64,000 nucleotides of DNA. Source: Beroe forskalii (lineage: Eukaryota > Ctenophora > Nuda > Beroida > Beroidae). Positions within the stretch are counted from its first letter, which is position 1, and each line of letters begins with the position of its first letter. Below the pieces are notes generated by a model. It was not told the DNA's origin. It did no database searches and saw only the letters and a list, made by a program, of their open reading frames with translations. Location of the stretch: assembly GCA_011033025.1 (NCBI GenBank), contig WFMF01000172.1, positions 62,001 through 126,000 on the forward strand, given 5' to 3'. Both the position numbers and the translations under genes were made by a program. Positions 1 to 32,255 of the stretch are shown one piece after another.

Positions 1-389
1 AGGATCCAGTCATCCAGGGAGTACCATGAGGGTCTGAGCCATCCAGAATTCCCCACTGAAGACGCAAGGTTCCCACACTCTCAAACATTAATGCATTAAA
101 GACAAAGGTCCCTTGCCATTAACGAAGTCAAGATCCAATCAGCAACCCTACCTCAAAGCTGTACCTTGTACATACTTCTATATCCAACTAGACTAGAACT
201 ACTATAACCTACTAGACTATAGAACTAACAAATAACCAACCAGAACTAATAAAACCCACTACTAAAACTAAAATACTTCTAAGAATCTCAAACCACGATA
301 TGGCTCGGCAGCTTTACCAGACTTTTCATTGGTTTTATTGTTTCATCCAATCCCAAAACATGGATACGATGCGGTAGATTGGCAGAGAA

Positions 390-2100
390 TGACGTCATTA
401 TCAGGGATTAAAATGGGGAATTAGTGACGCGAATCGTCCTACTTGTCCTACCAAATATACCAAACATATACGAGGGCAAATGATGCTGCATAAACCGTGT
501 GTCAGAGAATTTCAATGTTTTAACTTTTTAATAAGAGGCCTCTTCAATCGAAGACTCTCACTTCACATGACTCTTCTTTGATCGGAGTCCTCTATTTTCC
601 ATGACTGTTCAGCAATCGAAGTCTCCTATTTCACATGACTCTTCCGCTATTGGAGTCCTCTATTTCATATGAGCGGAAAGGACAATGACCAGTAATCAAG
701 GATAGGAAAGATACTTATAACGTTTCCGATGAATGGTTATACTGGTTGTATTATGTGGCCAGGGATGGTGATTATGCTACTCAGGAATGGGTGAAATCAG
801 CAGAAATCTGGATAGGGTAACTTAATCGATTGAGTGGTTGTATGTGACCAGGAGTGGCGATTATGGAGGTAGGTGGGTTTTGAGGGCTTCAGTAGTATTA
901 ATGTAAATCTCTATCATTTACCAAGGTGTTTTAATGCGATAACCAACCCAGATCAAGTAGCAGAATGCAAACGCTTGCCACGTTTATCACTCCTTCTAAA
1001 AGTGTTGCCATGAAACCTTGAACACTGTTACCAAGGCAGCATCATTAAGGGTAACTTAATCTTAATCGGTGCAATTAAATCAATTACCAAGGACTTTTCT
1101 GATAGCCAATTAAGATCAGTACTGTGCCTGCCACAGTCCATCTAAAATGGTTACCATGACACCTCATTGGAGCACTGAAACCGTGACAGTATCAAGTCAT
1201 ACTACCACTTGTCTAAATGTGTCACCATGACAACTAAATATGTCCCTATTTGAACAACTGTGTCACCATAACAACTAAACGTGTCACCGTGTCACCCTCA
1301 CCCTGGTACCAACCCTTGGCTATATCTAAAGTTACGGAGACTGATCAGACACCAGCAAGGATATGGTGTCTTCCAGTCTACTGCTTGAGTGCTACCTACT
1401 TTACATGTCATTTTACAAACAAAGTACCGGTCCTGCGCAGAGAATAGACATTGAGATAGTGACGTCATTATCATAGCTTTAAATAGTGAATTGATGACAT
1501 CACACTGCCTATTTTATACCTACTGGGTATCTAATGGAGATCGTAAGGAGGGTAGTAATGACCATTTACCCTGACCAACTAATTTACTTGTCCACATCAG
1601 TCGAACGGAAGTTCATTCTAAAAACTATATACCTTCGCTTAATAATAATATGAAAAAACTACAGCACTCAAAAAGAGATATATCTTGCATATATAATGTC
1701 AAGTATTTCTGAAAAATACCCCCTTGAATCGTCAACAATTCACCATTCCAAACCCTGATAATGATGTCACTCAAAATACCCTATGAACCTTGCATATTCC
1801 AAGAGTTTTTGCCGATGAGCATGATGGCAGAAGCATGCCAGGACGTCAAGTGAGAGATTGACGTTTCTAAAATGACGCTATTATCAGAGTCTAGAGTGTT
1901 AAATTGATGCCGTTTGACTGGCTACGTCTCAAGAGCGTGTTATAGGAGAGCTGGAAGAAGGCTGGAGCATAACGGACAGAACAGGGTCTGGTCAAGCTAC
2001 GATCATCATTATATAGAGAGGAAAGGAGTATCTGACTCATGGAATAGACGAGAGGGATGACGTCATTATCAGGGATTAGAATGGAGCGTTAATGACGTCA
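390..2100. repeat. Cluster of double-CRE dispersed repeats
   Basis: Copies of one ~43-bp repeat start at 390, 1460, 1873 and 2058; an inverted-orientation copy ends near 1779. Each begins with TGACGTCATTATC or a variant and has a second CRE-like octamer exactly 35 bp downstream, start to start (390 and 425, 1460 and 1495, 2058 and 2093). In the 2058 copy both octamers are perfect TGACGTCA. The middle is AT-rich with a conserved AGGGATTA-like segment. TGACGTCA is the known site for CREB/ATF bZIP factors; whether it works here is unknown. Confidence 0.8.
541..674. repeat. Imperfect ~33-bp tandem repeat
   Basis: About three and a half degenerate copies of a unit of the form CACATGACTCTTC, a short spacer, then GGAGTCCTCTATTT lie head to tail. 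Copies differ by substitutions and small indels, so the array looks old. No coding frame runs through it. Confidence 0.7.
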
Positions 2101-2652
2101 TCAGTCAGGGATGTATGAAGAGTTTAGGGAGAAGTAGGGGAAGAGGGTATGATCAGTTAGACAAATGATTGATGCTGACGTCAATGGGATTTACCCTGTA
2201 AAATCTATACCGAGTGAGTGATATATGGCAACATATAGGATGCGCTTGCTAGCCCGGACACAAGAGACGTTGGGAAGAGGAGGGGAGGGTTAAACAAGGG
2301 CTAGGGGGAAATAATAGGCGTTTTCGAGTGAGCAATCTGTCGTTGAAAACCTTGATTATTGTTTCAGGTAAGACCGCCAATAAATAATTCGGGGGTTCTG
2401 CTATCAAAGTTTGTAATGAACTTACAAGAAATATAAAGATAATGATAAAGATTATAGATTGGTTTCCAAGAATGTAGAAACAGACGATTCTTCAGGGATA
2501 TTTCAGGTATTTTCTACAGAACGCATATAATTTACTCCAAAGAGAGGAGCAGTAGAAGATAGATTACTGGGTAGTAGAGTAACCAACTACAACTATTGGA
2601 TAATAACTACTCAATTATAATCTGAAGAATTGAATATGAAGTAATTAACTAT

Positions 2653-2713
2653 CTAGACCATTCTAGACCATTTTAGTCCATTTTAGTCCATTTTAGACCA
2701 TTTTAGACCATTA
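2653..2713. repeat. 10-bp tandem repeat
   Basis: About six head-to-tail copies of a 10-bp unit, TAGACCATTT, with A/G/T variation at one position (TAGTCCATTT). This is a short minisatellite in gene-free sequence. Confidence 0.85.
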
Positions 2714-5039
2714 TATGGACCCCAAATTTGTAGAGAGGTTTTAGAATCTGATCTAGAGAGAATAAAATACTGCATGTCTTCTTCATTTCAGTTAAATACG
2801 ATGATTATAAATTCTACGAAATGTAGAAAGGAGGAAGCAAGGTTACACAGCAAATAATGATAAAGTTCTTCCATAAGGAAAATAATATTTCCAAAATAGG
2901 GTGCTTGATCAAGATATTCTGTATCCACGGTCAATTCAAACTCCACGGCACAGCGTAAAAAGACATCGGCTTCAGCAGCCCAAAATTCCAAAAGTATTAT
3001 TTGAAGCTGGACAAACATCCTCTGAAAAAGTTCAGACACAGAGACTTAAACTTTGCGTCTAATTGTCGGTCTTCCGAGCCTATGAAAGCTTCCGTCTCAA
3101 AGCTTCCGTGATCGGGCGAATGACAACCACGCCCTGATAGACCAGATAAGTGGTCACGAATGATTCCTACTCATTATACATCATTGGCTAATCAATTGCG
3201 CGTGATTGCCCAAAATACAACTTCTCAAGAAAACAAAATATTACATCGACCGTAACGTTAAGTTTAAAACTGATTTACAGCCCACGAACCAAATACACAC
3301 AAGTGCAGGACTCAGGTTAGATGATTTCAACTATTGCTGTAAACTGGAGTTCACAGGCAAGGATAGTGCCCAAACGTCCGGATCTAACCCTGGACCTAAC
3401 CTGGCGAGTACCTCGATATCCAAAAACAAAAACTGGAGTTGCAGAAAGGGATCAAAACGACAAAACGTCGGCCTAATATTATATTCAGAGATGCAACGGC
3501 TCACTACATAATAAACTAATGTTACAGCTGCTGTCAGGATTCATGAATTCTCAAGAATATTAATATATGGGTACCCTACTAAATACTAAGTATCCGAGAA
3601 TATGAACAATTACAGTTAACAGCAATAACACCAGAACAGTTACAGTTAACAGTAAATGCTTCAAATAGCGTGACAATAACCCCAGCTTCCGACATTATTC
3701 CAGCGATATTCCATCAGGAATTACAGAAGGACTCACTCTATAGCTTCATCATCACCCAATGAGATCAGAGATACAGTCGGGAACTACCTTCAATCCTTTA
3801 GAACTTCATACTCAGCCAATGCGGTACGCTTATAAGTGAGCAATGAGCATAGAGGTAGAAGGAGGGGCTCGAAAGCTCGAAGTTTGGCATTGACCCCGCT
3901 TCCTTCTGTAGAATGACAATAAATCTCAGCAGGAGATACAGTAATGTCAGGGAAATGGTGTCGGGGGATGAATAATGTCGAGATGGGTGGCATAATATGT
4001 CTGTATACCGCTCACCACAGCCCATAATGGCAGAGTTCCTAGCATGATAGTTGGATTCTTTGATTACTGGTGTTGCCTGGTAGTTGAACAAATAGTATGA
4101 AACGCAAATTCAAAGCAAAACTTACGATTTAAACCATGGTTTAGTGTTAAAAAGAAAAGATTACAACAGCAGAAAGTTTTAATTGTCTGCTTGAAAAGCG
4201 ATTTAACTTATTTTATTTTTGATAAGCACGATTATCAAAGTTTAAGGATCACTCTACTAATTCATTCGTTTCTACTGCGGTTGTTTTTTCGTATAATTTC
4301 TAAATATAGGCGGCAAAAGTGAAGCTCGAAAGTGTCTAATCAACCGTAAAACATATTCGTTGTTTTTTCAAATCAAAATGTATCCAGAACTAAGGTTCGG
4401 ACTTAGAAATTTTTGAACAAAACATGAACAACACCCGTTCGAATGCTGACGGACTCCGTCTCACAGACACTACAGCTCCGCACTCAGCACCGCGCGCTTT
4501 CTTACCCGCTGCACGCCGTGATTCAGCCAATCAGAACGCAGTATTTTGATCGAATCCTGCGCACTGAGTTAACCAATACCCAATCAAAACGCAGTAAATC
4601 ATCCGAATATCCAGCACTCTGATTGGCTGGATCTAAAAACCGTCGCCTCAACTACTGCGCCGATACATCTGAGTGAGAGTTCAGACTCCTTGACTCCAAC
4701 CCGACCTTAAACATTATATCCCTTGCTTCACTCCCAATTTCAATGCGTTTATACCCGTGCTTACAAGTACTTATACTGATCAAGTGTCGAGCGTGAGTAG
4801 TGGACAGTTTAAGCGGCCTCAATTCACCATTGAAAAGTATGATAGTGACATCATTTCAAAACGCATAATATCCTCGCGCGCGCCGCGCAACCTATCACGA
4901 CTATTACTAACAAGGAAATATGTCGATTAGTAATTTGCAAAGCACGCTTTCAAACGCTGTAATAAGTGAGATTTTCCTCCATCAAACGCTTAAACGTGTG
5001 ATATAACTAAGACAAATGACTTGCTACTCCTTACAAATC

Positions 5040-5155
5040 TTAGTTTTCCACCCGCAAGATCAAAACATCGCCATGACGAAGACCAATCAACGAGGGAGTT
5101 CAGAACAATTTGAGCGCTGATTGGTCAATTCTAAATGGACCTGTGGGAAAACTAA
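5040..5155. mobile_element. CCAAT-hairpin MITE, copy A
   Basis: A ~115-bp inverted-repeat element. The outer arms are TAGTTTTCCACCC on the left and GTGGGAAAACTA on the right. The inner arms carry GACCAATCA and, inverted, TGATTGGTCAA. The same organisation recurs at 10648-10823, 37957-38045 and 42784-42901, so this is a dispersed family. It has no coding capacity. Size and terminal inversion fit a miniature inverted-repeat transposable element; no target-site duplication was recognised. Confidence 0.75.
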
Positions 5156-7456
5156 TATACTCCTCACTGCAGGAAGTGCAAAAAATATGAGCAAAGGGTA
5201 GAAACGTAATTATCATGCAAAAATGGCGAATTTATTACACAAAATCGGAATTTTAACCTGGCTCGAAACATCTTCCTCTATTTGGAGAAGAATATACGGA
5301 TTTCCTGCCAGATTTCTGGGAAAAACGCAACGCGTTGTTATCAATCAACTAATGGGTTTTTCAGGGTTTTAAATCGTTTTACAAGTCCATTATCCTCATC
5401 GTTATCATTTCGCCTATTTTGAATATCCTGTTTTCTCGATTCTGTTTTGCCGACCACTTCGTTCTACGATAATAATACCTGCTCCGATTTATGTATCTTA
5501 ATTCTAAAATTTTCCATGAGACTGGAACCCGGAAAATGGAAATATAACAAATATTAATAACGTTCTTTAATTCAGTGGTGGGTTATGTCAAAAATTCTAA
5601 CAGACGGAACCAGTCAAAATCAATAAGTCCAAGGCACGAGAGGGCATGCGGCCAAAGGTCAAAGTGGAAAAAGTTTAAAAGTGGCTGGGAAAACGCTCTT
5701 TTCATTAACGCGGCAAAAAACGAAAAATAACCGAAAATGTATGTCAGCAATTTTCCATTCTAAGCTATAATAATGACGCCACCCCTATGTTTTCAAACAC
5801 CATTGTAAAACATAACAACCATCGTTAGTTGGTTAATATTTATTTTTAAACCTTGTAAACCATTATGGTCCGAAGGTGTACGTTAAAGTTTAAGGGAAAA
5901 GTTAATACAGCGCAAAGCATTATAAAACGGGGGTGAAGCTGAAACACTGAAAGAAAAGTAGGTTTCATACTAGGACAACTACTGCGACAATATGTGAGTG
6001 CTGTGTGATACATACACCAACATATGTAGCTACTTCTCGTACCCGAAAAGTAGTCGAATCAACGTCCACAATTACCTATTATAGACTACTAGAAGGCCCG
6101 TTGGGACTTGGGCCTTCTGGGTCACAGGACACCCGACTCTTTCAATGCTGACCACAGGGCAACACCATGCCAGCATATAAGTATATAATTCCCGTAGTCA
6201 GAAACTTTGTTTCTAAGACGTGAAAAGTTGAAAAAAGTTGACATTAAAGTACGCAGTATTTTCCAAATTCGTGAGCCACAACGCAGATAATTCATAAATA
6301 TTGAATTATGAAACTTTATGACAAAAACAAGTGAAACGTATGAAATTGAAATAACATGATCGATTGCAGTTTTTTCAACGTTTGGAAGTGTCAAATGTGA
6401 TATTTAACACTAAGTAAGTCATTGATGCAATTTTTTGCTACTGGGGGTGGGGGTGCAACGTAACGAAATTACGAAAATTCACATGAAGGCTTTGAAAATT
6501 AATAAAAATATAGACCAAATTTTACGATTGCATATTAACCTCGAACAGCTGTTAAATAAGAAGAACTCAATGTTTTCTAAACTAAAGTTCAGATAAGGAG
6601 AATAGATGGGCAACAAATTTGAATCCGAGCTCATTAAAAATCAAAATTGTTTGCATTTTTTATCTGTTCATAAACCACTTCTAGGTTCAGTAAATATGAA
6701 TTACTCATTCCGTCGAATTCTCGCAGCAAACCATCGAATTTCTTTCTTGAAAGAATTATCGCTAATTTTCACAATTAAATGAAACAACTCTTATCAATAT
6801 CATTTCTCCTAAGCTCCTTCAACAGTGATAAGAGTAAGCCTTCTGTCAAAAAATTTTTACCGGACTCGAAAATTCCATTGGGAGCGTAAATTATGAATTT
6901 CAACAGTGGAAACGTTTCCAAAATACAAAATAACGAAATAACAGATTCTTCGTTTAAATGCACGTGCAGTTTTGCGCGCGCTAGCCCATGTATCCATAGC
7001 AACGCGCGCAACTGGTGAATCAAATCTATAACTCGTTCTTGTTTTTTGCGACCCTTTTTCCAACTTTGAGCATTAATCACGGAAAATATAAAGCCTTTAC
7101 GCAAAAAAGGAGAATGTAGCAATACGAAGACACCTTTTTTCTACCACCCTGCAAAAAATCGCGGGTTTTCAACTCCTAGTGTGTCAGATTTTCTGGGAGA
7201 GCGAAGGCTCCTACCTTGAACTACCTCTCTCGATTATAATAATAGATGATATTGACGTCATCATCTCCCGCTTATTCATCACCGTGGGGGGCTTATATTG
7301 TGAGGAGTATTTTAACACATAATGTCAAAATATTAGCATTTTCGGGGAGTATCATGGGCGCTACACAAAGGACTTTTATATCACTTCACTCTATGTCTAC
7401 TGGTTGTTGTAGAGCTACTCAATTCACAGAGACCTGTGCTTTATCGGACACACGTG

Positions 7457-7645
7457 GGTTGTCATGACAACCATGTGTTGTCACGACAACAGAGTGCTGT
7501 CATGACAACAGAGTGTTGTCATGGCAACAAAGTGCTGTCATGAAAACAAAGTGTTGTCATGACACCAGAGTGCTGTCATAGTAACGGTGTGTTGTCATGA
7601 CAACAGAGTGCTGCCATGACAACAGAGTGTTGTCATAATACCAAA
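7457..7645. repeat. ~20-bp tandem array of palindromic 14-mers
   Basis: Roughly ten head-to-tail units of about 20 bp, each centred on GTTGTCATGACAAC (a perfect palindrome at 7458-7471) or a near variant and joined by AGAGTG-type linkers. Because every unit is self-complementary, the single strand could form many small hairpins. The core resembles a degenerate RFX X-box (GTNRCC, 0-3 nt, RGYAAC) but breaks the consensus at one half-site. Confidence 0.85.
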
Positions 7646-8430
7646 TAAATAACTTTATCAAGGGAATACACGATCTAAGTAATTTAGGTAATAGTACCAA
7701 ATGGAAATAAAATGAATCAGAAAAATTTAACAAGAAAGCCGAAAATAAGTACTGCACAACTGTCACAACTCACACACGTACAGTAATTATACACAGATAA
7801 TTCAAAATTGTCGTATTGAAATGTTTCAAATGTATTACAAATCTAAACTCCTGGATCCATCTTAGAAGTGTAATAAAGTATCTGTAGCTTATATATGACA
7901 GAAATGGGCGAAAAGAAATTATCAGAGACAAGAAAAATTAACATATGCAAAACCTCATTGCTACGTTATATTTTTACTCGATACCTCATGCAATGATATT
8001 TACACAGGGCATGCTAGACTTAATGATAGTTACGCGCTGTGAACGAGGATTATAGAAGTTTTGACGGCAAAAGTTGATCATACAAAATCCTGATAATGAC
8101 ATAAGTCACTATCGTCTTATTTTTTTGAAAATGATCATCAACGAAAATATCATCCTCCTAATAATATTTCATCTGCCTCAAATTATGAAAAGTAAATATT
8201 CAAAAATATACTGAATGGTAGGTGTCTACCGTAAAAACCAATTTCTCGATGATTTTTAGAGTGATTAGACTGATTTGAAGCGCGGATACACTAAATTTCG
8301 ACATGATCGTCTGAGATGGGATGAAGGATTAGGAGCAAGCATTTTGGGCAAAAAATGTTCTGAATATTTACACTTTGACCATGAAAAGTGTGAGCACGTA
8401 CAGTATCACACAGTAATGCGCGCGAAATTC

Positions 8431-8642
8431 AAACACAAGGAAATGTCTGGTATCCATAGCAACAAATATCTTGTGTACTGGTAACCATAACAACAGTTCC
8501 ACAAGTAAAACACAAGGAAATACTTGTTATTGGTAACCATAGCAACACAAACACAAGGAATTACCTTTGGTAACCCTAGCAACACAAACACAAGGAAATA
8601 CCTGGTAACCCTAGCAACACAAACACAAGGAAATACCTGGAA
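8431..8642. repeat. ~35-bp tandem array carrying X-box motifs
   Basis: About five units, each with ACACAAGGAAATACC followed by a GTAACC-AT-AGCAAC-like 14-mer. The 14-mers start at 8450, 8481, 8533, 8570 and 8605. The one at 8533 (GTAACCATAGCAAC) fits the published RFX X-box consensus GTNRCC-N0-3-RGYAAC exactly, and those at 8570 and 8605 fit with CT as the spacer. The array may be a simple minisatellite; RFX binding is inferred from motif match only. Confidence 0.8.
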
Positions 8643-9065
8643 TGTTGGGCGGGGGTGTGATTACATGAGGTTGGAGTTCCCCGATACATTGCCTCTGTAG
8701 CTGGGGAGACAGAAGGGAGGTTGTCATGGTGATCACATTTCACTCCGCAGGGTCATCTCTCATCATGGGTCATGGTGCTGTGTAGTTGAGGGGTCAGAAG
8801 AGAAGATCTCACGAAATTTACTAAAACTTTATAAACTGATGAACTTACCGGTTAGCGCAAAGTGCGAAAAATGACAAAACAGACCGACGATTTTACAATG
8901 ACAGAATATTCGACTATTACAGCGTTCCACAATACGAAAGCTGAAGCTGTTTAAGTTTTGATTATTTTACTGTTCACAGGTTACAACTTAGAACATTATA
9001 TCGCTAGAAAGTAGAAACACACTATTGGCTACAGAAACGTGCCACAGAACCATAACAGAGCCTTA

Positions 9066-9096
9066 CTCAGCCAATAAGACAGTGTTATTGGCTGAG
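9066..9096. repeat. Perfect hairpin with two CCAAT boxes
   Basis: A perfect 12-bp inverted repeat, CTCAGCCAATAA and TTATTGGCTGAG, is separated by a 7-nt loop. Each arm carries a CCAAT box, so an NF-Y-type site is present in both orientations. It resembles the inner part of the CCAAT-hairpin MITE family but lacks those outer arms. Confidence 0.8.
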
Positions 9097-10647
9097 CGTC
9101 AATAAGTCAATAATAACACATGTGTCATTCTGAAGACGCAGTTCACAAACCTTGAAGCCCTTTCTAGTTGACTTCGCAAGCAATCCACAAGACAACTCTA
9201 TATAAAGATTAGACTGTGTGACATCACTGATTACCCACCATTACCCCTGATAAAGCCTTCACTCTGAAGTCCCACCCACCAGGTTTTGCATGAGCAATAT
9301 AACCATGCTCGGGTAATCAATACTCTCAGATGACTTATACTAATACTCATAGTACTAATCATGCAGTTATATACAAAGGACTAACATCGCTTAACTCCTC
9401 TCATCGGAATACCCTAACTGCCCCCAGCCTTCACTAGGATTCCAGCAGAAGGACAATAGGCACATAATTAATAATAACCCTAACCGATATATGTAATCAT
9501 GTAAAATATATGAGCCGGGAAGTTGAGAATGACCACATTAACAGGCTCCTAAATGGGGGGTTCATGACGCAAGGTACTTTAGTTTTTGAGCGGCTCATTA
9601 AAGACAAATTTGGTTTAACGGTTGAAATTTACATTACAGAGAAGAGGTAGAAATCACCTACTCAAGAATCTAGATTCCCAAATCCCAAGGGTTGCTCACA
9701 GACGGACAAGCATTTGAGAATGCTCTGAGTTCCATAGCAGAGATAACAGAGCAATATCAGGTCTTGCTCAATCGCTAATTAAGAGGCTAACAAACGGGTG
9801 ACTTGAGATTGAGAGGCCTATTTTAACTAAATAGCGTATTTTAATAACTAAATGCTTCATTAAATCGACCAAGCAAAACGATCTAATCCTAATTTTATAG
9901 TGATCCGAGATCAAAGCCTGGATACATGAATTATAATTACAACAGATCATATCTGAGGATTGTTGAATTAGTCTCTGAGAAACCGCTCATTCTCATCCCC
10001 TCAAGTTAACATGAATTACAAATTAACGGAGAATAACGGAGAATAGATTCCCTAAAATTAGCGATGCAAATTTACAACACTAATTTTAGGGAACAACATG
10101 AACTAGATAACCCTAGAATAACACACAGGAGAGATACTTAGTAAATTTAATGATCCAGCATAAAACAGGTAAATTTAGACAAAATATACAAGTCAAATAT
10201 ACGTACCATGATAAACTGTTTTCAAAGCGTCAATATATATAACACATTGCCGAGGAAGAAGCTTACAACTTCTTCAGAAGAAGATTCAAACCCGTACAAC
10301 TGTAGTTTGAATATATATTATGTGTAAAATTATTTAGTTTATTATTTAGTTTACGTAGTCAAACCAGGAAAGACTATACGTCAGAGTATGATGCGTTGAA
10401 ATCAGTACTCAGTATATAAAACATGAGGCAATATTCTAGATTATATACCAGTGACAAAACTATAGATTCTAAAGTTCCTTCAGCGATTAAAGCCCAAGAT
10501 TAGAGTTCAATCATTTAGCTGAGCGGAAACTAGGAGGGCAATAGAGACCAAGAATTGACAGCTTATAGTTCGGTATAAAATTATGCACAGTAACCAAGAA
10601 TGGGGGTTTAAGGTCAGCTGACCAGACACTATATTTTTGACGGCGGA

Positions 10648-10823
10648 TTAGTTTACCCATAGATCCATTTAACAGTGACCAATCAGAACACCAGTTGACC
10701 GTAAAATCGTGCACTGATTGGTCAATGCCTTAACGAACAGTCACATTTCACATTGACCAATCAGCGCATCAGTTGACTGTAAACTCGTTCATCGATTGGT
10801 CAATGCCATGATGAACTTAGTGA
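10648..10823. mobile_element. CCAAT-hairpin MITE, copy B (doubled core)
   Basis: Same family as 5040-5155 and 42784-42901. The left outer arm begins TTAGTTTACCCAT. The CCAAT-hairpin core occurs twice in tandem: GTGACCAATCAG paired with CTGATTGGTCAATG, then ATTGACCAATCAGC paired with CGATTGGTCAATG. A partial internal duplication of an older copy is the simplest reading. Confidence 0.7.
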
Positions 10824-12883
10824 GGAAGTATGTCTAACAGCCTCACAACTGGTCGATGGTCTGTCAGCGGGGATGTGCACTGTTATACCTCCTACCTTGT
10901 TACTCTAACTTTTACAAGTGGTGGCCGACAGAACAACTAATTCTTCAGGGAAAGTTGGGGGATTGTTGAAGAACTACTGTACCAAATTCCAGGACAGTTA
11001 GGAGATTATCATGGGCGGAATTAGAACATTTCATATGTGTCATGGCTGCAGAGAATATTGAATAAATGCAGAGCAGCCTGCAAGACTCAGTATTCAGGAA
11101 ACTCAAGCCTTCTCAGTTCCCAATGCCAATTGGAAAGTGGAAACACGCCTTATTTCTCAGCCTTATTTCCAAGTTGTATAACTCCTGATGAAGTAACAAC
11201 TGACAGTAACAGATGGAGATATCAACAGATTCATGGAAACGGCCATGAAAACTAAAGGTTTCCAGGAATTGTAAGTGAATATAACAGCCACTGTAATTGA
11301 GTAATTGATAACTGCCACTCTAATGGAGTAATTGAAGTGTGCTGTAAGATATAAAAGGCCTAATGGGCGATGAAAGAAATAGGCGGTCAAAATGACGTCA
11401 TTTACAGTATGCGCGCTGCCAAATTGTTGCAAATAACCGCCTATTTTCGTGCGCGGGGTTTCCTTGAGAGTACTTAGACCATTCTAAAAGCAGCTTGCCG
11501 TATGGTCGAGACCACACCGTAATTCAGCAGGCGACAGAAACTCCCATTCTAAATCGGATTAGAGGGGAAACCGCTTTGATGATCTAGAGAGAATAGCAAC
11601 AAAAATAGGCGGTGTGACGTCATCAACTCACTATTCTAAACCATGAAATGCCGTAACTCTCATCCACATACTTTCTGTTTACTTCCCGCGTTTAATGTGC
11701 AAAGCAGGTCAGTAAAAACATACAAAATACAGCGGTGTAATTGGCAATTACCCTTGGAAGCTTTGAGGGTGTGTATAAATATTTAACATCAATTCTCATG
11801 GTTACAGGGTGAAGCAAGTCTAAGTCTAAGTGGTAAACAGTGGACATGGTCTTTGAGAAAGGGATAAACCTTTGACAAAAGAACAAAAGTCTGAGATACA
11901 TCAGCGCAGTGCAGAGACGCATCAAAGCTACGCTTTTATACAGGACAGGATTGTTCTGGAGCTTGTAATGGACAGTAAAAGGACAGAACAGGACAGAATA
12001 CTTTATGGCAAGCTTTTATGTAAAGAAGAAAGCAAGATTGTTCAGGAATCAGGATTCAGGATTGTGAATGTGAGCTTTGGATGCAGTGAAAAGGACAAAA
12101 CCAACAATTTCATATGCGCATAATTATATGTTTACGGAAAACAAAAATAAAGACCAAAGTTAAAAAACAGGAGAAAACTCAAAAGAGGATAGATCACTGG
12201 TGACTGGACAATATACTCGCTAGAAATGTAGAAAACAGGAGTCTGTAGCACAGACCGACACGGCACAATACATAAGTTTCAATGTACAGGATAAAACAGG
12301 ATTGTCAACAATTGACACAGGATTACGCAGCACACCACACTGCACAGGACATGCCACAGTACTTGACAAGACAAGGACGAACAAATTTAAACTTAACAGA
12401 ACTACTTAATCAAATTTGAGGATGGAATTCTGAGGATGTTTCACACGAAGATATCAATGTCAAGTCAATAACTGATAACTGTTCGTCATAATATTTGCAG
12501 TCTAACCAAAAATAAAAAGAAAAGACAAAGTTGAATTACGCAGCACTGCCACAGTACTTGACAACACAAGGACAAAGGACTTAACGACAAACTTACAGTG
12601 TAAGTGTACAGGATAACACAGGATTAAGCCGCGCAGAGCACGCCATTTGACAAGGACAAACAACTTAAAGACAAACTTATAGTGTACGTGTACACACGAA
12701 ACTCTCAGACCTCCCCAGTTAGCACTGGTCCGTTGCACAGCAGACTATAGTATATTTTTGAAACAGCTGACCGGATATAATACTCTGACCTACGTCAGAC
12801 AATGAAAAAGACACCCGATATACAAATAATGTAAACTATATGCTACGTCACTCGACAGTGTTTGCTTGACATTGACCGGGATG

Positions 12884-12970
12884 ATGGCAAGTATTTTATA
12901 TATTTTACTGTCCTCCGGAGAAAATACCCGGGATGGATGGCAAGTATTTTATATATTTTACTGTCCTCTG
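12884..12970. repeat. ~53-bp tandem duplication
   Basis: The segment starting GATGGCAAGTATTTTATAT and ending TTTACTGTCCTC occurs twice in a row with very few differences. It is a recent local duplication in non-coding DNA, with no motif of known function. Confidence 0.85.
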
Positions 12971-12974
12971 GGAA

Positions 12975-13740
12975 TATTGCGGAGTAAAGACTCAGTCTGG
13001 AAGCTTGAAGACTGAAGAGGAAAGTCTGAGACTCTGATAGCTTAAGGAGGAAAGACTGAAGATTGCAGAATGCAGATTTGAGACTGATTCCTCACTTGAC
13101 TACGTCCGAGAAGCTTGTATAGTAAAGACTGATTGCAGAGGGGAGAAGAAGACTTTGAAAGCTTGGGGAGGGTTGTAGACTGATACAGCTGAGGAGAAAA
13201 GACTGAAACGGATATTTTGCGGACTGGAAATTGATTCTTCGCTCTGGAAGATCACGGAGTAAAGACTGAGGAACCATGCGGAGACAGACTCTGGAAAGGT
13301 TGCGGAGTAAAGACAGAACCTGAAAGCTATGGAGCAGAGTAGAAACCGAGGAAGATTGCGGAGTGAATACTGAGACTTCTCATCCCAAAAGAATACGGAT
13401 GGGAGAATGATTTCTTACTCCTGACTGAAGGAGGAATACGGATTGCAGAGAAAAGACTGACCATACAAAACTTTTGAAGAAGAAACTGAGAAGTGAGGAA
13501 GACTCATCGCCGAGAAAGCTTGCGGAGTAATATAAAGACATTCGGAAAGGTTTCAGAGAAGAAAATTGGGACTTTTCACTCCAGAAAGTTTTAGCAACCA
13601 GATTAAAGACTGAGAAAGCTAAGACCAGCGACTTCTCACTGGCGGATTAAGACTAAGAATCTTGCGGAATACAAAAGACTGCGACTTCTCACTGAAAAAG
13701 CTTGCTGAGTAAGAACTGCGACTTTTCACCCGGTTTGGGA
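12975..13740. repeat. Degenerate purine-rich tandem repeat
   Basis: An irregular repeat with the recurring words GCGGAGTAAAGACTGAG, CTTCTCACT and GAAAGCTT, every roughly 40-60 bp, with strong purine bias on the plus strand. Copies are heavily diverged. There is no coding frame. Confidence 0.6.
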
Positions 13741-13848
13741 GACCGCTACTCTGGTGACTGAGTGTCAGTCAGCGATTATAACGGTTCCATGATCCGCAGT
13801 TACAGAGCATAATATTTATACAGACTGCGATTGAGATGGAATATGGAG

Positions 13849-13891
13849 TGACGTCATCAACCCACCATTCTAAACCCTGATAATGACGTCA
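13849..13891. repeat. Double-CRE repeat, best-preserved inverted-orientation copy
   Basis: Two perfect TGACGTCA octamers start at 13849 and 13884, 35 bp apart. The intervening sequence reads in the opposite sense to the copy at 2058, with CCATTCTAAACCCTGATAA in the middle. Another TGACGTCA follows at 13999. This copy and the one at 2058 define the consensus best. Confidence 0.85.
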
Positions 13892-16800
13892 TTATCTCCT
13901 TTCTATCTCCTGCAGACAACTTGTAATATACCCAGCCTAGCGCCACAGGACTTGATACCTGTAAGTTATATTACCAACATAAACAGGCGATGGATTGATG
14001 ACGTCATTATCACAACTTAAAGTAGCACATGTTCATAACCCTTGGTAACCATATTCATAACCCTTGTTTTCTGGTAGGAACAACCCTGTTTTCGGGTATT
14101 AACAAGCCCTGAAGTAGGAGGAGTGGTTACAACTACTGGGAATTAGATGTCAAGTGAGCCGGACAGGTTATAAAACCCGGACAGGTTAGAGTCTGCAGCA
14201 GCAGCATCGGAACAACTACAGAGGAGAGAAGATGAGACTTCGTAAACTGAGAAGATGATGAGGGAGCGTAAACAACTTCCAGAAGATGCGACAAAATGAA
14301 CTATTTTCAGAAGATGAGAAGATGACAGGTTAGAGGTTACCAGCAGCAGAACATCTGAATACCAACTTAGCTACAGCAATTCATCATGCTGGAACATCTG
14401 AAGATCCACAGAGGAGGGAAGGATATTGTGGAGAAGACGAGACATATCGTAGCAGGGAGGAGATTAGACAGAGTAAACTGAGAAGATAGATATTTCAACC
14501 TACTTCGAGAGATGATAAATACTTCATCGATTCATCATGTCGAACCTTGATAATGACAACCAACTTGCCAGCCAATCACTCGCCTGCCAATCACTAGTTG
14601 AGAGCTGACAACGATCATCACATGACATATATTCGAAAGCTTCTATCGTTTATAAATAGTCGGAGTAGAGAGTTAGGTGACAAATGAGGTGATAACCAAG
14701 ATAGACAGATCTCTATCGCTCAGGGTCCAGGGTGCAGCATAGATTTCACAGAATATCTATCCTAGGCTGTCACTGCTAGGGGTGCAGCATATATTTCAAG
14801 ATAGACAAATCATGAGGTGCAGTAGTTACGACATCATAATATAATCCAATGGGGGCAGGAGTTACTGATAATATGAGCAGTTAGTTGACAACAGATCAAT
14901 AGGTTCAATGTCATTTACTCATAAATAACAGCCTGGATATTATGCTTGTCTACCTTGCATAAGCGCCGGGCTTGATAACAAGGTAAACAGAAAGAATACA
15001 AACACGAGACTGGACGGATTTCTTATGATCGGCGAAGATTTCGATCATGATTGGAAAGGAATTTGACAATGATATATTCGTAAATTACGCAACTTAGAAG
15101 CGGCAAATTCGAGATAATACGTCAAGAATTCACGATAATATACATGCGCCGATTTCCTTTAGGAGAACGAAAACAAACACTCAACAAGGAAGAAGCTAGC
15201 TGAGCCAAACTGACAGTGAGTCTGATGTGGTAGTATCAGTCCAAAAATCATAGAGATAAGTATATATAGTCGACTCCAAACAGGCGTATCAGAATTTGTG
15301 ATTTCAGATCTCTAAACTCCGACATCCCAAATGCAACTAAAGATGATGATTCCTCCAAGCAGAGCTTTCTAAAGCTCAGATCTTTCTTATTAGAGCACAT
15401 TCCATGGACACGGATGAATGATGTTCTGCATAACAATTTCAAAAGCCTATCTCATAGTCTTCTAGTCTCTTCAAGGACCAATTCAACGACTGAAGATGAT
15501 TTCTCTGATATGGCACATGAGAAACATGAGATTTATAAAAGGAGGATCCGAAAGAACTCATTGAAATGGTGTACGGGGTGGAATCATCCATCAGCGATAA
15601 TAGATAAAAACCTTTATAAAGGAGTAGCAAAGTTACGAAGCCAACTGACCCAAATCGGAGTTAACTTACGCTTTACGATCACTAATTTTCAGTTAAAAGG
15701 AACGATCGAAAACTTAAATAAGCCTTTATCCCCCATTTAGGTTACGGGAAATGATAAGGAAATCTGTGAGAAAAGTCTGGTAAAGAGCGAACCAAAAGAA
15801 CAACAATTGGTTTAATTTCGGGTATATAATGATGCTAAAGACCTTCGACGCTAATAAATGGAAGAAGATTAGCTAAGAGGGGTAACAGGAGGGCCACTTC
15901 ATCTGAGATAATCGGAACATTAACATACATAACTAAATAAGAGCTTTTTAGCGTTTTTATGTCCAGGTTCGAAGCGTATCTTTAATGAAAAACCATCGAC
16001 CTCTTCTCCGCGGTATAATCGGTGCAGTACTAATGACGAATTATATCCGGGCTTGGGATTCGTAGAATATATAGAATAACATAAAAACCAGCCTCGATAT
16101 ATACTCATCCTGAATCCCGATTTCATGTAATATGGGAGATGGCTAGACCTATATTATTTTGATAAAGGAGCAATGTTGATTGGCGCGCGCATGATTTATC
16201 ATGGACATATTGACACTTCGTTCCCCTTGGCATCTGTGGAGAAGGTATATAATATAGTCACTGCGTACATATTATATATGAGAGATGGTTATATATGAAA
16301 GGTAGATCAACTCGTATAATTGGATGTTTTCTTATAATGGTTCACTAGCAACAGAGGAGTATATATAAGGGCAGGCCAAACGGATGCGGTGATATGTAGG
16401 TAAAAATATTGTGAACAATGCAGCCGGCTGCACATATAGATCATACGACTCCGAACTCTCCCATCATCAGAGTTATGTTAGGAGCACTGATAAGCACACA
16501 TACAGACGAACTTACAAACAAGGGCAGACGAACAAACACGCAGTCATAATATGCAGATGAACATACAAACGAACAGTCATGTACAGACGTAAACATTTAA
16601 ACAGGCCCGTAAGGATACAAACGACGAAGGTACAATTTAAAAACACTCGAAAATACAGAAAAGGGCAGACTCCGATAAAAACGATATATTCTAGACATAC
16701 AAACTCAAGTCATGTTATGCAGACGTAAACATACCGATACAAACGCGCACAAAAAATACCCGAATATACCAAAACATCCTCTAACATTTTACGAGGAATA

Positions 16801-17349
16801 AAGATACAAAAAAAAACTCTGAGCGAAGAACAATAATTGTAGATTCAAAGACAAAAACGGACAAACCCACAAAACCAATCCTGAAAAGAACACAAATATC
16901 ACCACAGACATACACGTGCAAAACAACCAGAAAACACAAAAACACGTGCAGGAAACCCATAACAACGCAGAGACGCACGCGCTCGAAGCCCTTGACAACA
17001 CAAAACTCCCTAACAACACAAAAACCAGGCCGAAGATTATGAGGGGACATCGTGATTATATCATGAGTAAATTATCAGCGTATACTCGCATTGTGATCCT
17101 CTTAAATCATGAGCAGTGTGTATAATAGAAGGAGGAGGAGGAGGGACCAAGGGAAGAGTTGGGACCAGGGGATATAACAGATGATCGAGAGTCAGATCAT
17201 ATGTATATATGTGGGTCTCATTGTGTCACAGGAGTGATTAAATGTCGTCATACGACTCATGGTAAGGTTGGTATTGGGTTTTTGGACGCTGGAAGACACC
17301 AGGGTATAAGGGAGGTACGAAGTGGGAGACGCAAGAGCCAAGGCAAATC

Positions 17350-17640
17350 TTAGGAGGGTTCTAGAATTGATGAAAGATGTAGAACTGATAACAGATAAAG
17401 GTTCTAGAACTGATAAAGGACCTAAACTGATAAGAAATTTAAACTGATAAGGGATCTCGAACTGATAAAAGAGATTCTAGAACTGATGAGGGATTTAAAA
17501 CTGATAGGGGATCTACAAAACTGAATCTATAGGGGATTCAGATTGATCAAAGATCTAAATTGATAAATGATCTAAAACTGATAAGGAAACTGCAACTGAA
17601 ATCTGATAAAGGGATCTAGCAGAGATAACGATGAGAAAGA
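17350..17640. repeat. Degenerate ~18-20-bp tandem repeat
   Basis: About fifteen diverged units of the form ATCTAGAACTGATAAGGG are arranged head to tail. Unit length drifts between about 16 and 22 bp. No protein or RNA feature is recognisable. Confidence 0.7.
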
Positions 17641-20083
17641 CACAACGGAACTAGTAAAATGATATTCTTCAAGATACTAGGAAAGAATAGAACTCTATGA
17701 AAGTAGATGAGACGAGGTTCATATGTTTTGATAAAACCACGAACATATGGACACTACGACCGAAGACACACTCACATTATATGCCACGAGGGTTATATTA
17801 AATATAGATAGATATATAAACCGTAGTGATAAGATGATCGTAGATTACATAACCGCCACCCCCTTGATGCCGACTCCCTGACTGAAACCCGCCAATTTAT
17901 ATTCTCGATTTTAGTCTGTCCAATATGGATCGAGAAAAGGGAAAGAGCGTTTATTTTTCATATATATATAAGACCTATATAACCCGTGGCGGTGTTTATA
18001 TAGAAATATATTTTGAAAATAGCGAAATGGCCAGTAAAAACGAGATATATCATCACAACTGATCAATGATCAGTAGGTTTAATGTTGGTACATATGTATC
18101 CGATGTTGGAATGATCAGATACAATATTATATATTTTCTATAGTCTCTTCTCTATAAACCACGGATGGAGCGAAAAGGAAAAGGTTCAAATATGAATCAA
18201 GACCTGAATTCGTGACGTAATTATCAGGAGTTAAAATGGGACGTTGATGACGGCATAAAGTCTATTTTCCTTGCATTTAAACCAAAGGTTACTTTGATCT
18301 CTTTTAATACACCAAGGACCATGCTATATATCTCTCTAATGACCAGACGAGGTAGAGTTGATTGCACTGTAGACTGCTTGGAGATACGAGCTTTTTGGTA
18401 AAATAGAGCATTCCGCGGTATCAACCCACCGTTCAAAGGTCTCATTATGACGTCATTCTCAATCATATATTCTCAGAGTTTTACGTATATTATCCGCGGT
18501 CGTTAGCGGATATATGGACAACAAAATGCACTGCTCCAGCTAAAGTCAATGACTTTCAGGATTTCTTTCAATATACCTTCAATAAGCCTGGAATACTCAT
18601 TAACTGCACTGGAAATCGTGATGGAAAGCAGGGTGGATTCAGCTGGAAACATGCTGGAAAACCGCTCGAGCCAAACTTCCAGATGAAAACATAGGAGCTT
18701 GAGTTTAAAGTTGAAAGACTAGAGACACTAGGACGAATGGTATGATGTATGTGCTCTGAACAAGGGGATATATGGACGATTCGATAAGATCAGGACATCG
18801 CATAATATCATGAAAATGGAATCACTCTTAACCGACAACTATGGGAAGGCGATTATAATAGTGCCATTACTCCAGTTCACGAAACAATGCTAATCGGAGT
18901 TAATTGCAATTATAGAACGACCCAATTCTAACAATAGTTGTAAGTGGCAGTTGTAAGTAGTGCTACAGTATCTGTAACTAAGTCTCAAGTGCTAGACCAA
19001 CCAACGTTCTGCTCACGGTACAGGCGCTCCATAACACATGATCTATAGGGTATAGTACCTAACACCGAAAGAAACTTCAGCCTAGGGGATATAACTCTTA
19101 GCGCTCCAAAATCCGTGTTCTGATTCGACTCAACTAAAACTACACATGTCTAAGCAATCAGAACGTCAAGAATCGAGATCAATGATATGCCAGTGTTACG
19201 ATATTTATCAATCATTGATTGACCAATGAACAACGCCCATTTACCAATCAAAATGATGATATCAGAAGATGAAAGACACTAAGTGACAAAAGCAATCTAA
19301 AAGATATATCTATATTAAAAGTTACAGTGAACATTGAACAAACACCAATTCATATGTGACTCAGAGTACAGGTGTGCGATATATTAGTACAAACACATAT
19401 AATCAAACACACTCGTGTTTGTAAGAAGCATCAAACTCGCACAAGTTGTTTATTTACAGCCACCTTACGTGTAGCCAGTCCTTTCAATTTCACCCTTCAA
19501 AAAACATTACTTTTCTCATGTCATCAATTACTCAATTATATCTTTTCTGAATCATGCTGGTGATGTAACGTGCATCTGTCAGTCGTTTCAGCATGACAAG
19601 TATGGCATTTAGGTGGCATACAAGTATTCAAAAAGTGAAAAGGTATTGTAAACTTATTTACTGTTATTTCAAAGCGGTGGAAAAAAGGCCAAAAGTGAAA
19701 AAACTATAGCAAGTCAATAAGAGCAGTAATCGTGTTTTGTTTTGACTGCAATCGCTGCAATTAGTTTCTTTGGTACACAATTATTGAACAACAAAATGAA
19801 AACTATTTGTTGTTTATATTCTTTTTGATCACGATCGGACAAAACCAGGAATTTGTGAGAGACAATTAGTGACAATTAATCTTCTGATTAATTTAATGAT
19901 AATACTGATTCCTGGCACAAGACTGAATGGCTGATGCAGCATCGGTTAGCATGACTACTTATTACCATGATTACTTGTACTGGTTACCGTAACTACTGAT
20001 TACTGGTTACCATAACACTGAACTCCGGCACAGGGCCCTGCACAAGCAGCCGACATTAAGGCACCAAAGAGCAGCGCGTGCTA

Positions 20084-22752
20084 ACCCTCTTGTTCCATGG
20101 CCAAATAATTCACTGAAATAATATGGCCATATTTTTTCTGAAAAATATATTTTTCAGCTCAACCTGTTCCATGCCCATATAATTTTTGCGCCGCGCAAAT
20201 TACGTAATTAAATCACTGTCCAAGCATTGAAACATTAACCCATCAGTATTCAGTCAACTGATGATTGGTGCATAAACCAATCAGATTGAGCAATATGTAT
20301 GTATTTACTTCTCGATACAATATTACGAGCATAATATTTCTATTCAATGCACGTAAAGTTCGCCTTATCTTCATTCCGATTCACCTAGACGTTATAGATA
20401 TAGTGCATACAGCACAGTCAAAATGACAGGGCCTACTACAGCTGTACAGCCTATATGAACTTATGAAGGGTTGAGTATACACGGCCAACGCCCAAAGAAG
20501 CAGCAACTGGGATGTTTTTTGTCACGAGTGGAAAATCGCGTGGCCTCATCCCCTCTACTTGCATATTCCAAAATCATGTTTTATAAAAGAGAGAACCGGT
20601 CAGTCATGGATCGGCAACACTTTTGAATGTCCCGGCACCTTGCTGCAACTACATTACACATCTGTTGCGGTGAGCGAACACGTTTGCATCTTACCTTCGT
20701 GCCTGTTCACCGCTAACCCTAATGTGCGGCTGTAGTCTGTACAGTGCAAGTGTAGATACCTTCATTCTCCAAGGCGTTAAAGAAGCTTAAACAAGGCAAA
20801 AGGTTACCTACATAATCACCATCTGCAGCGACTTCTGTTATAATGTGTGTGTCTACTGAATTCTTTCAATAGCTTTCAAAGGCTGACTCCACAGGTACCT
20901 ACAGAGTACAGACTTACCAGTACCAGTAGTGATGTGTTTTAAGTCTGTGCACGCATTCATTGGGCTTTTTATCGATTCCCTGTCAAAGCTCCCTTGTTCT
21001 AAAGTTATAATTCTAAACCTTTACCCGGAGCCCAACTACGCTAGCCCTAATTCTAACTCTAACTCTAATCCTAATCTTTTTATAACTTCAACCCTAACTT
21101 AATGTTTGATTGTTTGAACCTAACCTAAACACTGATTTTAGAGTAGGCCGCAAACACTAGATTTAGAGGACAGTTTTATCAGGGAAGTTTTGCTCGCTCA
21201 CAATGTCACCTTCACCGAATGAGCGATTGAGTGAATGGGATAGGTAGGTACCAAGTACCAACCTCATTGAAAAATGAATATAGGTACGCTTTCATATGGG
21301 GCTCAAATTGGCCGATTCTACCGTTCCAGTGCCGTTGTAATGCCAAATAGTAATGATTACGGTAATGATGTAGTCAATGCAAACAATTCAGATTGTATGT
21401 ACATGCTTATATGGCCTGAGACCTGTGGTGGGCTCACAAAATTACATGCCAGGCTGTGTTCACTGTTATGCATAAGACTTTTAATCAGTGTGTTTAAGGC
21501 AAGTAATGGCCTATGCAGACACTACTGAGTGAGGTTTAAAGGGGGCCAACCCCCATAAACCCCAGTGGATATCGAAAAATGGCAAATGGGGGTTTAATTT
21601 TGGGGGTTTATGGGGGTTTATGGGGCTTAATTTAGTTAAATTTTGCTGTTTTACGACTGATTTTGTTCACGATTTTTGGCATTTCACGGAATGGTACCAT
21701 TTTTGTTGACGATTTTGGCCTTTTTTGAAATGGTACCATTTTTTGTTGATGAATTTCGGCCCTTCTCTGAAATGGTACCTTTTTTCAGCGATTTTCAAGC
21801 CTTTTTGAAATGGTACCATTTTTTGTTGCGCATTTTCGAACCTTTCCTAAAATGGTACCATTTTCGGCCATTTTTTTGAAATGGTACCATTTTTTGTTGA
21901 CAATCTTAGACCCTTTTTGAAATGGTACCATTTTTTGTTGGCGATTTTCAAGCCTTTTCTGAAATGGTACCATTTTTGTTGACGATTTTTGGCCCTATTT
22001 TTGAAATGGTACCAATTTTCATTGAAGATTTTCGACCTTTTTTCTGGAAAATTAAACCCCCATAAACCCCCAAGTGGATATCGAAAAAGGCAAATGGGGT
22101 TAAATTTTTGGGGGTTTATGGGGGGTTTATGGGGTTGGCCCCCTTTAAAGTATCCTGACAAAGTATCAGCGGCCAACAATGATAAAATGACTTGATTAAA
22201 TTGATTGAGTATGACCTCCATGGGTCAGTACTCGCCACTCGGGTTCATTAGTCTGATCACGGCCTCATTAGCAGTTTCTCCGTGGCCGTGGTTCACAAAC
22301 TATTAAGTTGAATTATTGTCTTTAACATGGCCTATATACAAGGACCTAAATATGATTTGATTGTTCTTATTCAATGAACTTTTTAGGTTCATATTTCCCA
22401 ATTATTGAAATTAAGAGTTTTTTATTTCCTCGATCCGCCTTGATCAAGGTCAATGGTGAACGAGCTTGAAGTCGGGTGAAGAGTGTTGAATGTAAACAAT
22501 TACCTCATTAACACACAAGAGTAAAGAATACCCGGGTACATGTCAAAATTCAATTAAGCGTATCAATTAGAACGTGATCTAGGTGTCCACTACCCATATA
22601 TGAGTAAAAAAATTTAATATGTGCCCGGCTTGCACATATTTTTTCGAATTCGAATTATATCAGTAAAATCAAAAAATATGGGTAAAAAATATCAGAAAAT
22701 AAATATCACTGATATATATGAGTGGAAATATGGCCATGGAACATAGGGGTAA
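20084..22752. mobile_element. 2.67-kb TIR element, copy 1 (non-autonomous)
   Basis: The left end ACCCTCTTGTTCCATGGCC and the right end, read on the other strand, ACCCCTATGTTCCATGGCC, form ~19-bp terminal inverted repeats differing at three positions. The whole unit recurs almost identically at 46491-49169 with unrelated flanks, so it moved as a discrete element rather than by segmental duplication. No long open frame or transposase is present, so it looks non-autonomous. Inside lie a stretch of degenerate telomere-like CCCTAA/TCTAAC words (about 21040-21120) and a nested foldback unit with a minisatellite (21535-22155). No clear target-site duplication is visible; TAA follows the right end of both copies. 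Confidence 0.8.
21535..22155. repeat. Nested foldback unit around a ~40-bp minisatellite
   Basis: The ends are inverted repeats: TTTAAAGGGGGCCAACCCC on the left matches, reversed, the right end GGTTGGCCCCCTTTAAA. A second pair of blocks carrying GTGGATATCGAAAAA and GGGGGTTTATGGGG lies just inside each end in direct orientation. The core (about 21680-22025) has about nine ~40-bp units with the invariant 14-mer AAATGGTACCATTT, a perfect palindrome, joined by GACGATTTTNGGCC-like linkers. The unit is carried inside the 2.67-kb element and is repeated in its second copy (47945-48575). Confidence 0.8.
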
Positions 22753-30625: not shown

Positions 30626-32255
30626 GATATGCCTATCAGTAGGTATTTGTCAGTGACGTCATTAGGAAGGGTTTTAGCGGTGAGTTGATGGTGTAGAATG
30701 GTATCTCTTAGTATTAGGTCTGTTGTGGTGTCCTTTGCTACTATGGGGGTGTGGTGATTTCACAGAAAGCAGATAGCAGCGCGTTGTTTCTTGGAAGCTA
30801 CACAAGCACGGCCATGTCTCGTATTCTGCGATAAAGAATGAAATTAGTGACTTCTTGTTAAGTCACAAATCATCCGCAGGGGCTGAGAAAAGATCTATAA
30901 TGATATTTAACTTGGAACATTTTAACATTTTATATCTTAACTGAAATTCAATAATAGAAATTGTGTTAAGCACCGTGCACTTGGCCGGCATCCATGAGAT
31001 TGATATGAGCTAAAAAGATCTTCACTTCACTATGCAGCGTTTTAAAGTGTTTGCTTGCTGTGCTTTTTAACATTATATCGGTACTCCGTTTATATTTTCA
31101 ACAGCACTTAACTTTGTAGTGCTCCAAGTTTATATTATATCTCTTAGAGTGCACTAATTTGTTGGATATTGTGAATGCCATTAATTTATTGCTATATTTT
31201 TATGAGCTTTGCGTTTCGACTCATTGCATATGGGCGTATATTTTCAAATCATTTTGAATATGACACTTTTTAGATTTATCTCGATTATGTCACAGAAATT
31301 GCAGCACTTCGTCGTAAGTTAGATTTAGGACTTTCCAATTCTGCTATTTTCTGAATATTGTTCTTGTTCGCCTTTCTTTTCACGCAGTGTGTCGGTAGCA
31401 AGCGGTATTTAGTACAAACACATTTGCCTTGTAGCAGCAATTCCACTTCCAATCAAAACCATCTGGTGTCGAGTTTCACGTTTTATCTTTTAAATTTAAA
31501 ATGTCTAAGGCAATCTTGTACACGGTACTATCGAACAATTTTAGCACACGTCAAAATTTGGTGATAGCATGCTGAGCAAACTATAGAATTTTCACTTAGA
31601 ATGCTCTTAGGTTCCCGCGCTCATTTAATTAATTGTCTCAGAGAGTTGCCATTGCCACTCAAGGGTCGGTCACGTGCAAATATCGTGTAACGGACTGTAT
31701 TTTGCGTCGGCGGCGGAACAGAAAATTTGATACTCTGCGCGCTCCAAAAGCGATTTGCACGCACGTATCAAAAGGATTACGCGTCGAAATTAGGCAGACT
31801 CTTAACCTTTCAGTCACAAAACCGTGCATGGAAGGACGAGTTAACAATCATAATTTGATTTACTGCCATCCTTGTGAAAATGATCCATAAATAGCCCTAA
31901 ATTTGTGGTTTTGTTAAGCACCGTGTCACAACAATCGGCTTTATAACTCACTGTTCATGCTGTAAATCTTTGGAATTACTGATACATTGTTCACTTACAG
32001 AACTCTGTAATTAGGCGCCATATTAACAGATTGAATTTTATTCAATTCACTACTCAACTAACTGCTTAGAGTCGTCCGTTGCATTATAGAATTCTTTGGC
32101 TCTTGGATCGGTTATCGCTAAATGTTTCCGGTTTTATGATTTCTTAACATTAATGCTTATTGAATTGTTTAAATTCATGCTATTTTGAGTCTCAATTTTA
32201 AGTTTCAATGAATATATTGCAATACGCTAACATATAACCGTTTGAGTATGTCGCA
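30626..32255. other. Intergenic between TIMM22 and MAP10
   Basis: No exon was supported. A CRE (TGACGTCA) at 30654, 29 bp past the TIMM22 stop, begins a copy of the double-CRE repeat with a degraded partner near 30688. The rest is AT-rich, with a GC-richer patch at about 31660-31800 whose short open frames look random. Confidence 0.5.

Follow-up and report, generated by a model that had tools for sequence, protein, structure and literature searches.

How does a self-complementary octamer come to be scattered so densely through one short stretch of a ctenophore genome, and so often in pairs exactly 35 bp apart? The question is raised by 64,000 nucleotides of Beroe forskalii (positions 62,001 to 126,000 of contig WFMF01000172.1, assembly GCA_011033025.1; this whole stretch is here called the window), in which an initial annotation drew attention to a dispersed repeat made up of two octamers resembling a cyclic-AMP response element (CRE), with an AT-rich middle between them. 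The double-CRE repeat is very probably the core of something larger, namely a family of non-coding miniature inverted-repeat transposable elements (MITEs) of about 105 bp, with 27-bp terminal inverted repeats (TIRs), TA at the ends and many copies.

The excess of octamers is real. All 14 perfect copies of TGACGTCA counted in the initial annotation, from position 390 to position 37247, are present at their coordinates, and the figure of about one that it expected by chance becomes 0.68 per window (largest 3) in 100 dinucleotide-preserving shuffles. Six pairs had been listed at the 35-bp spacing, and while both the spacing and the occurrence in the two orientations hold, only two of these pairs (2058/2093 and 13849/13884) consist of two perfect octamers: the second octamers of 390/425 and 1460/1495 are TGACGCGA and TGACATCA respectively, those at 18213 and 18248 are TGACGTAA and TGACGGCA (all four imperfect), and in the pair 8062/8097 neither half is perfect. 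Places that match the 35-bp unit at 23 or more of its 35 positions number 13 in the window, as compared with one altogether in ten base-shuffled windows.

Much the same is seen genome-wide, where counts were made over the 216 Mb of the assembly with the pattern read backwards as a control. The octamer occurs 30,002 times (reversed word 7,048), against roughly 2,300 expected per genome if the shuffle mean of the window is scaled up, implying an enrichment of about 13-fold; at one per 4.6 kb the window is 1.6 times denser than the genome as a whole (one per 7.2 kb). For TGACGTCATNATCA the count is 8,827, as compared with 10 in the control. Perfect pairs at a start-to-start distance of 35 bp number 1,513 (control 1), as against 478 for all spacings from 36 to 65 bp combined (control 493), so the preference for 35 bp, the lack of which had been named as a result that would tell against the repeat, is genuine. 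Spacings of 8 to 34 bp yield 2,098 perfect pairs (control 510); among the matches listed for these, 11 or 22 bp prevail, and the four loci that were read belong to another repeat.

What the pairs are part of emerges from the sequence on either side of them. The flanks of core copies held weak mirror-image boxes, and the TIR box CGCCTATTTCTNGTGCGCNGYGTATA, allowing up to one mismatch, has 271 matches in the genome and none in the control, with nine opposite-strand pairs 78-79 bp apart among the matches listed. When 30 loci were cut around TIR box matches, 29 of them matched the core consensus at 29 or more of 43 positions, the core being deleted in the remaining one (L055). The consensus, TATACGCCGCGCACGAGAAATAGGCGG-GTAGGA-TGACGTCATTATCATAGCATGATGTAGTGAGTTGATGACGTTG-AA-CCGCCTATTTCTCGTGCGCGGCGTATA, is 105 bp long including the TA at each end, and its length is uniform, in that it could be aligned in 26 of the 30 loci; the other four (L046, L050, L051 and L055), which have deletions or broken arms, were left out of the profile and of the 26-copy counts. 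The TIRs, TATACGCCGCGCACGAGAAATAGGCGG and its mirror, are 27 bp long and match each other in the consensus (TIR counts over the 26 copies used 28-base windows), and the octamers lie at element positions 34 and 69, some 30 bp inside the ends. In young copies the core starts with TGACGTCATTATCA and finishes with GTTGATGACGTTG, while other subfamilies finish with TGACGTCA.

The element as a whole is a near-palindrome, the single strand of which is predicted to fold into one hairpin with octamer pairing to octamer (-41.3 kcal/mol, z -10.6). The 35-bp spacing follows directly from this arrangement, as the octamers sit in opposite mirror-image arms around a 27-bp centre, and as TGACGTCA reads the same on both strands they are at the same time direct repeats 35 bp apart. 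A striking double-CRE pattern is thus explained as transposon anatomy, which should counsel caution whenever an excess of some motif is read as regulation. The earlier suggestion of a very small transposon whose ends are CREs was therefore right as to the small transposon, but the idea that the octamers form the ends had to be rejected, since young copies share about 30 further bases on each side and separate 27-bp TIRs occupy the ends. A TATA-box interpretation was likewise discarded, as the position of TATAA varies (no single position has it in more than 4 of 86 copies), and a supposed single long element at C160:54540/59825 turned out to be two TIRs that belong to two separate MITE copies.

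As regards movement, TA agrees in 0.87 of comparisons of the end bases over the 26 copies and three bases agree in 0.35, so that there is no sign of a duplication longer than TA; the possibility of duplicated targets of 3-9 bp, also considered, found no support at the element ends. The base just outside the element is a pyrimidine in 21 of 26 copies on the left and a purine in 24 of 26 on the right. Copy number is high (650 matches of one young middle at up to three mismatches, and 1,791 of a 17-mer), and the element would have spread into TA sites by means of a transposase supplied in trans. Seven of 20 loci selected by their middle are one identical insertion with shared flanks; three of these, followed over 1.36-1.85 kb, share 97% identity, implying that this copy has in addition been carried along passively as a longer repeat multiplied around it. 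Such a repeat, at least 1.8 kb in length, about 97% identical between copies and with a MITE copy nested within it, is seen at L099, L100 and L101.

TA at both ends fits the Tc1/mariner, pogo and ISL2EU groups. It is possible, if on balance doubtful, that the copies are just the internally deleted ends of a larger, already described autonomous DNA transposon of some such type with a TA target. Transposase-domain matches in the genome comprise 5 to DDE_3, 35 to DDE_Tnp_4 and 22 to DDE_1, and the long open DDE_1 frames (the best listed being about 600-790 aa) would speak for such a parent; on the other hand, one DDE_3 candidate that was read, with 600 bp per side, has no TIR. That the copies might prove to be fragments of one known longer transposon had been foreseen from the start, and they are indeed related to a longer element, of 105 bp, though that element was not met in the papers searched.

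The copies in the window were located using a search profile built from 26 copies outside it and none within. At E<0.01 this gave 15 rows, corresponding to 13 distinct places, while the best E values in the controls were 2.2 (reversed window) and 1.2 (ten Markov sequences). These matches contain 12 of the 14 perfect octamers; that at 30654 is doubtful and that at 2176 lies outside. The copies, including weaker candidates, are as follows.

378-450, plus strand: MITE copy with octamers at 390 (perfect) and 425; profile 20-94, E 2e-4
1443-1514, plus strand: MITE copy with octamers at 1460 (perfect) and 1495, the best match in the window; profile 19-88, E 1.3e-10
1728-1769, minus strand: decayed copy core, weak (E 0.35); 28 of 35 matches to the unit
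1868-1941, plus strand: MITE copy; profile 29-102, E 1.6e-6
2040-2099, plus strand: MITE copy with perfect octamers at 2058 and 2093; profile 16-75, E 7e-6
4787-4884, minus strand: MITE copy without a perfect octamer, more complete than any other in the window; profile 6-99, E 6.9e-6
5740-5784, minus strand: decayed copy core; E 0.016
7235-7296, minus strand: partial MITE copy with octamer at 7253; profile 2-59, E 0.0029
11375-11461, plus strand: MITE copy with octamer at 11393; profile 16-104, E 7.5e-9
11596-11656, minus strand: MITE copy with octamer at 11615; profile 34-95, E 9.8e-8
13840-13897, minus strand: MITE copy with perfect octamers at 13849 and 13884; profile 28-87, E 4e-6
13981-14038, plus strand: partial MITE copy with octamer at 13999; profile 18-71, E 5.7e-5
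14521-14582, minus strand: possible decayed copy; E 0.06
18213-18274, plus strand: MITE copy with imperfect octamers at 18213 and 18248; profile 34-95, E 0.0036
18401-18459, minus strand: MITE copy with octamer at 18448; profile 30-88, E 0.0013
30654-30701, plus strand: doubtful copy with octamer at 30654; E 1.0, 31 of 43 matches to the core consensus
37242-37318, plus strand: MITE copy with octamer at 37247; profile 29-101, E 4.6e-8

Most of these copies are old and decayed, and they are related to the young copies found elsewhere. They fall mainly within 1-18.5 kb, a stretch with a single open reading frame (ORF) of at least 150 aa.

Many of the places read contain tandem arrays with a 35-bp period; examples are C14 (five units in register), L061 (11.5 units) and L037 (eleven units), while variant periods of 36 and 31 bp are seen in L065 and L063. 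In L037 (profile 32-96, E 1.3e-11), L067 (32-102) and the two-unit L023 (32-101) the last unit continues into the right TIR. The octamers could seed such arrays, for any word that is self-complementary and stands in two mirror-image arms is repeated in direct orientation too. Slippage or unequal exchange between octamers would then give rise to the arrays, and a near-palindromic MITE could in this simple way turn into a minisatellite. The converse proposal, namely that a 35-bp minisatellite has spread as short tandem pieces independently of any transposon, could appeal to how common the arrays are and to the fact that most of those tested have no recognisable TIR, but single cores with TIRs on both sides exist, the profile matches of the window copies reach into the TIRs, and the arrays of L037, L067 and L023 end in one; we regard it as very improbable. 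In L063 (270-920) an exon-like stretch is followed by many tandem copies of a 31-bp unit (GATATGGTGAGTTGATGACGTCATGTCTTAG), each unit having a donor-like GTGAGT and an acceptor-like TTAG. A splice-site interpretation, suggested by this array and by the presence of GTGAGT and TTATCAG in the unit, was rejected because conservation of those bases for the most part does not exceed that of the remaining middle.

MITEs that grow tandem arrays inside them are already known, to judge from the passages of the sources drawn on here. For Xstir of Xenopus (Hikosaka and Kawahara 2004) a MITE, a tandem array and mixed forms coexist, and the tandem repeats come from the inside of the MITE, as is proposed here (PMC12628747); the likeness is one of description, and, unlike the B. 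forskalii element, Xstir is mentioned in those passages without any CRE pair. In miDNA4, a Tc1/mariner MITE of Xenopus (Scalvenzi and Pollet), the inner satellite is one monomer or a variable array, growth of which is proposed to occur via short direct repeats (PMC12628747); there the superfamily has been assigned, whereas the present element has no assigned transposase group and its proposed seed is a self-complementary octamer. The BrickBuilt MITE of Porphyromonas gingivalis similarly has a tandem repeat inside small inverted-repeat ends, with promoter activity reported, but it is bacterial, has a 23-nt unit and was found 19 times in one strain (PMC4596501), and kinship is not suggested. A MITE with CRE octamers was not found in a literature search limited to papers, with Repbase and Dfam outside its scope, and, judged from that literature alone, the double-CRE family appears to be new.

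Several results weigh against an account based on a mobile MITE family and arrays born within it. No transposase gene linked to the TIRs was found among the candidates looked at, the best DDE_3 match (one flank pair) having none of them beside it, and the empty site of the copy nested in the longer repeat gave 0 matches when sought with one exact pattern. Among 86 copies selected by their core, the TIR box is kept at 8 or more of its 11 positions in only 14 on the right and 17 on the left, as compared with 4 in shuffled right flanks. In a motif test just two of 19 array flanks (those to the right of L060 and L067) exceeded the 95th percentile of shuffles, which is about what chance would give, so that for a few arrays there is support for an origin inside MITEs, and for the others we infer it. 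Lastly, five 10-kb stretches taken by position contain eight octamers, six of which lie outside profile matches, the other two being weak matches (E 0.25 and 0.31) within another foldback element; the MITE family explains the window, then, but not necessarily the whole of the genome excess.

Other repeats do carry the octamer or blocks like it. A second, different foldback element is seen at L025 (662-1174), with 160-bp arms (93% complementary) and an inner palindrome with TGACGTCATTATCATA, and at L070 (237-390), with 30-bp arms; the block TTTAGATCTGTGACGTCACTCAG is common to the arms of both. L071 (183-295) is a 113-bp palindrome with 56-bp arms (95% complementary), 1 base between them and a CRE octamer in each. 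A longer repeat common to L072, L073, L074 and L075 over 360-535 bp (82-94% identical) has either two octamers 22 bp apart or between two and four of them spaced at 11 bp. One could imagine, although we think it quite unlikely, that several unrelated inverted-repeat elements carry the same CRE in their arms, some in the form TGATAATGACGTCA (a GATA-like box plus CRE), and jointly raise the octamer to its 30,002 occurrences, the motif being a cis signal that mobile elements need: it would serve as a docking site for a bZIP factor of the host, one able to open chromatin or to help transposition in the germline, and would shield the CpG from methylation. Were this so, the host would gain thousands of ready-made CREB/ATF sites as a by-product.

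There is also the matter of how well the octamers are conserved. Among the 26 copies selected by their TIRs, octamer 1 has an identity of 0.957 and the left spacer one of 0.945, followed by octamer 2 at 0.899 and the middle at 0.882, with 0.857 and 0.846 for the unselected parts of the TIRs. A scan with all positions weighted equally, run over 194 kb made up of the window, the five 10-kb stretches and the sequence flanking the 30 TIR loci, found 56 copies at 27 or more of 43 positions and none in reversed sequences. The octamers are kept better than the middle in 38 of these and worse in 18 (Wilcoxon p 0.001), but the L037 array alone supplies 11 of the 56, and octamers were the reason for picking the window, so that the copies are neither independent nor wholly unselected. 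The earlier statement that the octamers are better kept than the middle applies to octamer 1 (0.88) and not to octamer 2, which at 0.75 is close to the remainder of the middle (0.70-0.74), while the six bases next to octamer 1, TTATCA, reach 0.90. The best-kept block is thus one side, TGACGTCATTATCA, rather than both octamers alike; on the opposite strand it reads TGATAA joined to TGACGTCA, which we take to be a GATA-like box followed by a CRE.

CpG survival was compared as well. In the TIR-selected copies 46 of 52 octamer CpGs survive, while the unselected TIR retains 87 of 129 (p 0.005), and in 12 of the 20 middle-selected copies the corresponding figures are 22/24 and 86/120 (p 0.04); the eight loci left out were the seven with the same nested insertion and one without TIRs, and the raw counts for all 20 are 30/40 and 109/200. 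Because octamer CpGs outlast those of the TIRs, constraint is possible, though unproven. It may be argued on this basis that the CRE, or the CRE with its GATA-like box, is selected by the host as a regulatory module that binds a CREB/ATF-type dimer, the transposon being only its vehicle. The better survival of octamer CpGs, the position of TGACGTCATTATCA as best-kept block and the sheer number of octamers in the genome would all suit that idea, and the other CRE-bearing inverted-repeat elements (L025/L070 and L071) keep it alive; against it, octamer 2 shows no better conservation than the middle, the left spacer is roughly on a par with octamer 1, and the window copies are concentrated in a region with a single ORF of at least 150 aa. 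From the sequence evidence such a module seems unlikely. The conservation data are mixed, fitting a need of the active element and selection after insertion alike. If the motif is in fact bound, mobile elements would have sown thousands of CRE sites through one genome.

Some other features of the window may be mentioned briefly. A tandem array of a 19-bp palindromic unit (GTTGTCATGACAACAGAGT) lies at 7458-7636, and one of a 35-bp unit with GGTAACC..AGCAAC at 8430-8654; both presumably resemble RFX X-box motifs. Two distant arrays, at 21661-22040 and 48074-48460, are built of similar units, about 42 bp in length (..TGTTGACGATTTT..GAAATGGTACCATT), with TGGGGGTTTA-type repeats near both sides of each. 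An open frame of 1001 codons at 52565-55570 has no Pfam match at 0.001 and, by eye, would seem to resemble a reverse transcriptase of the Penelope-like type, with GIY-YIG at its end. ORFs elsewhere in the window, in keeping with an animal genome, match RPE65, Beta_helix, MYND, Tim17, MAP10_N and ribosomal L6e.

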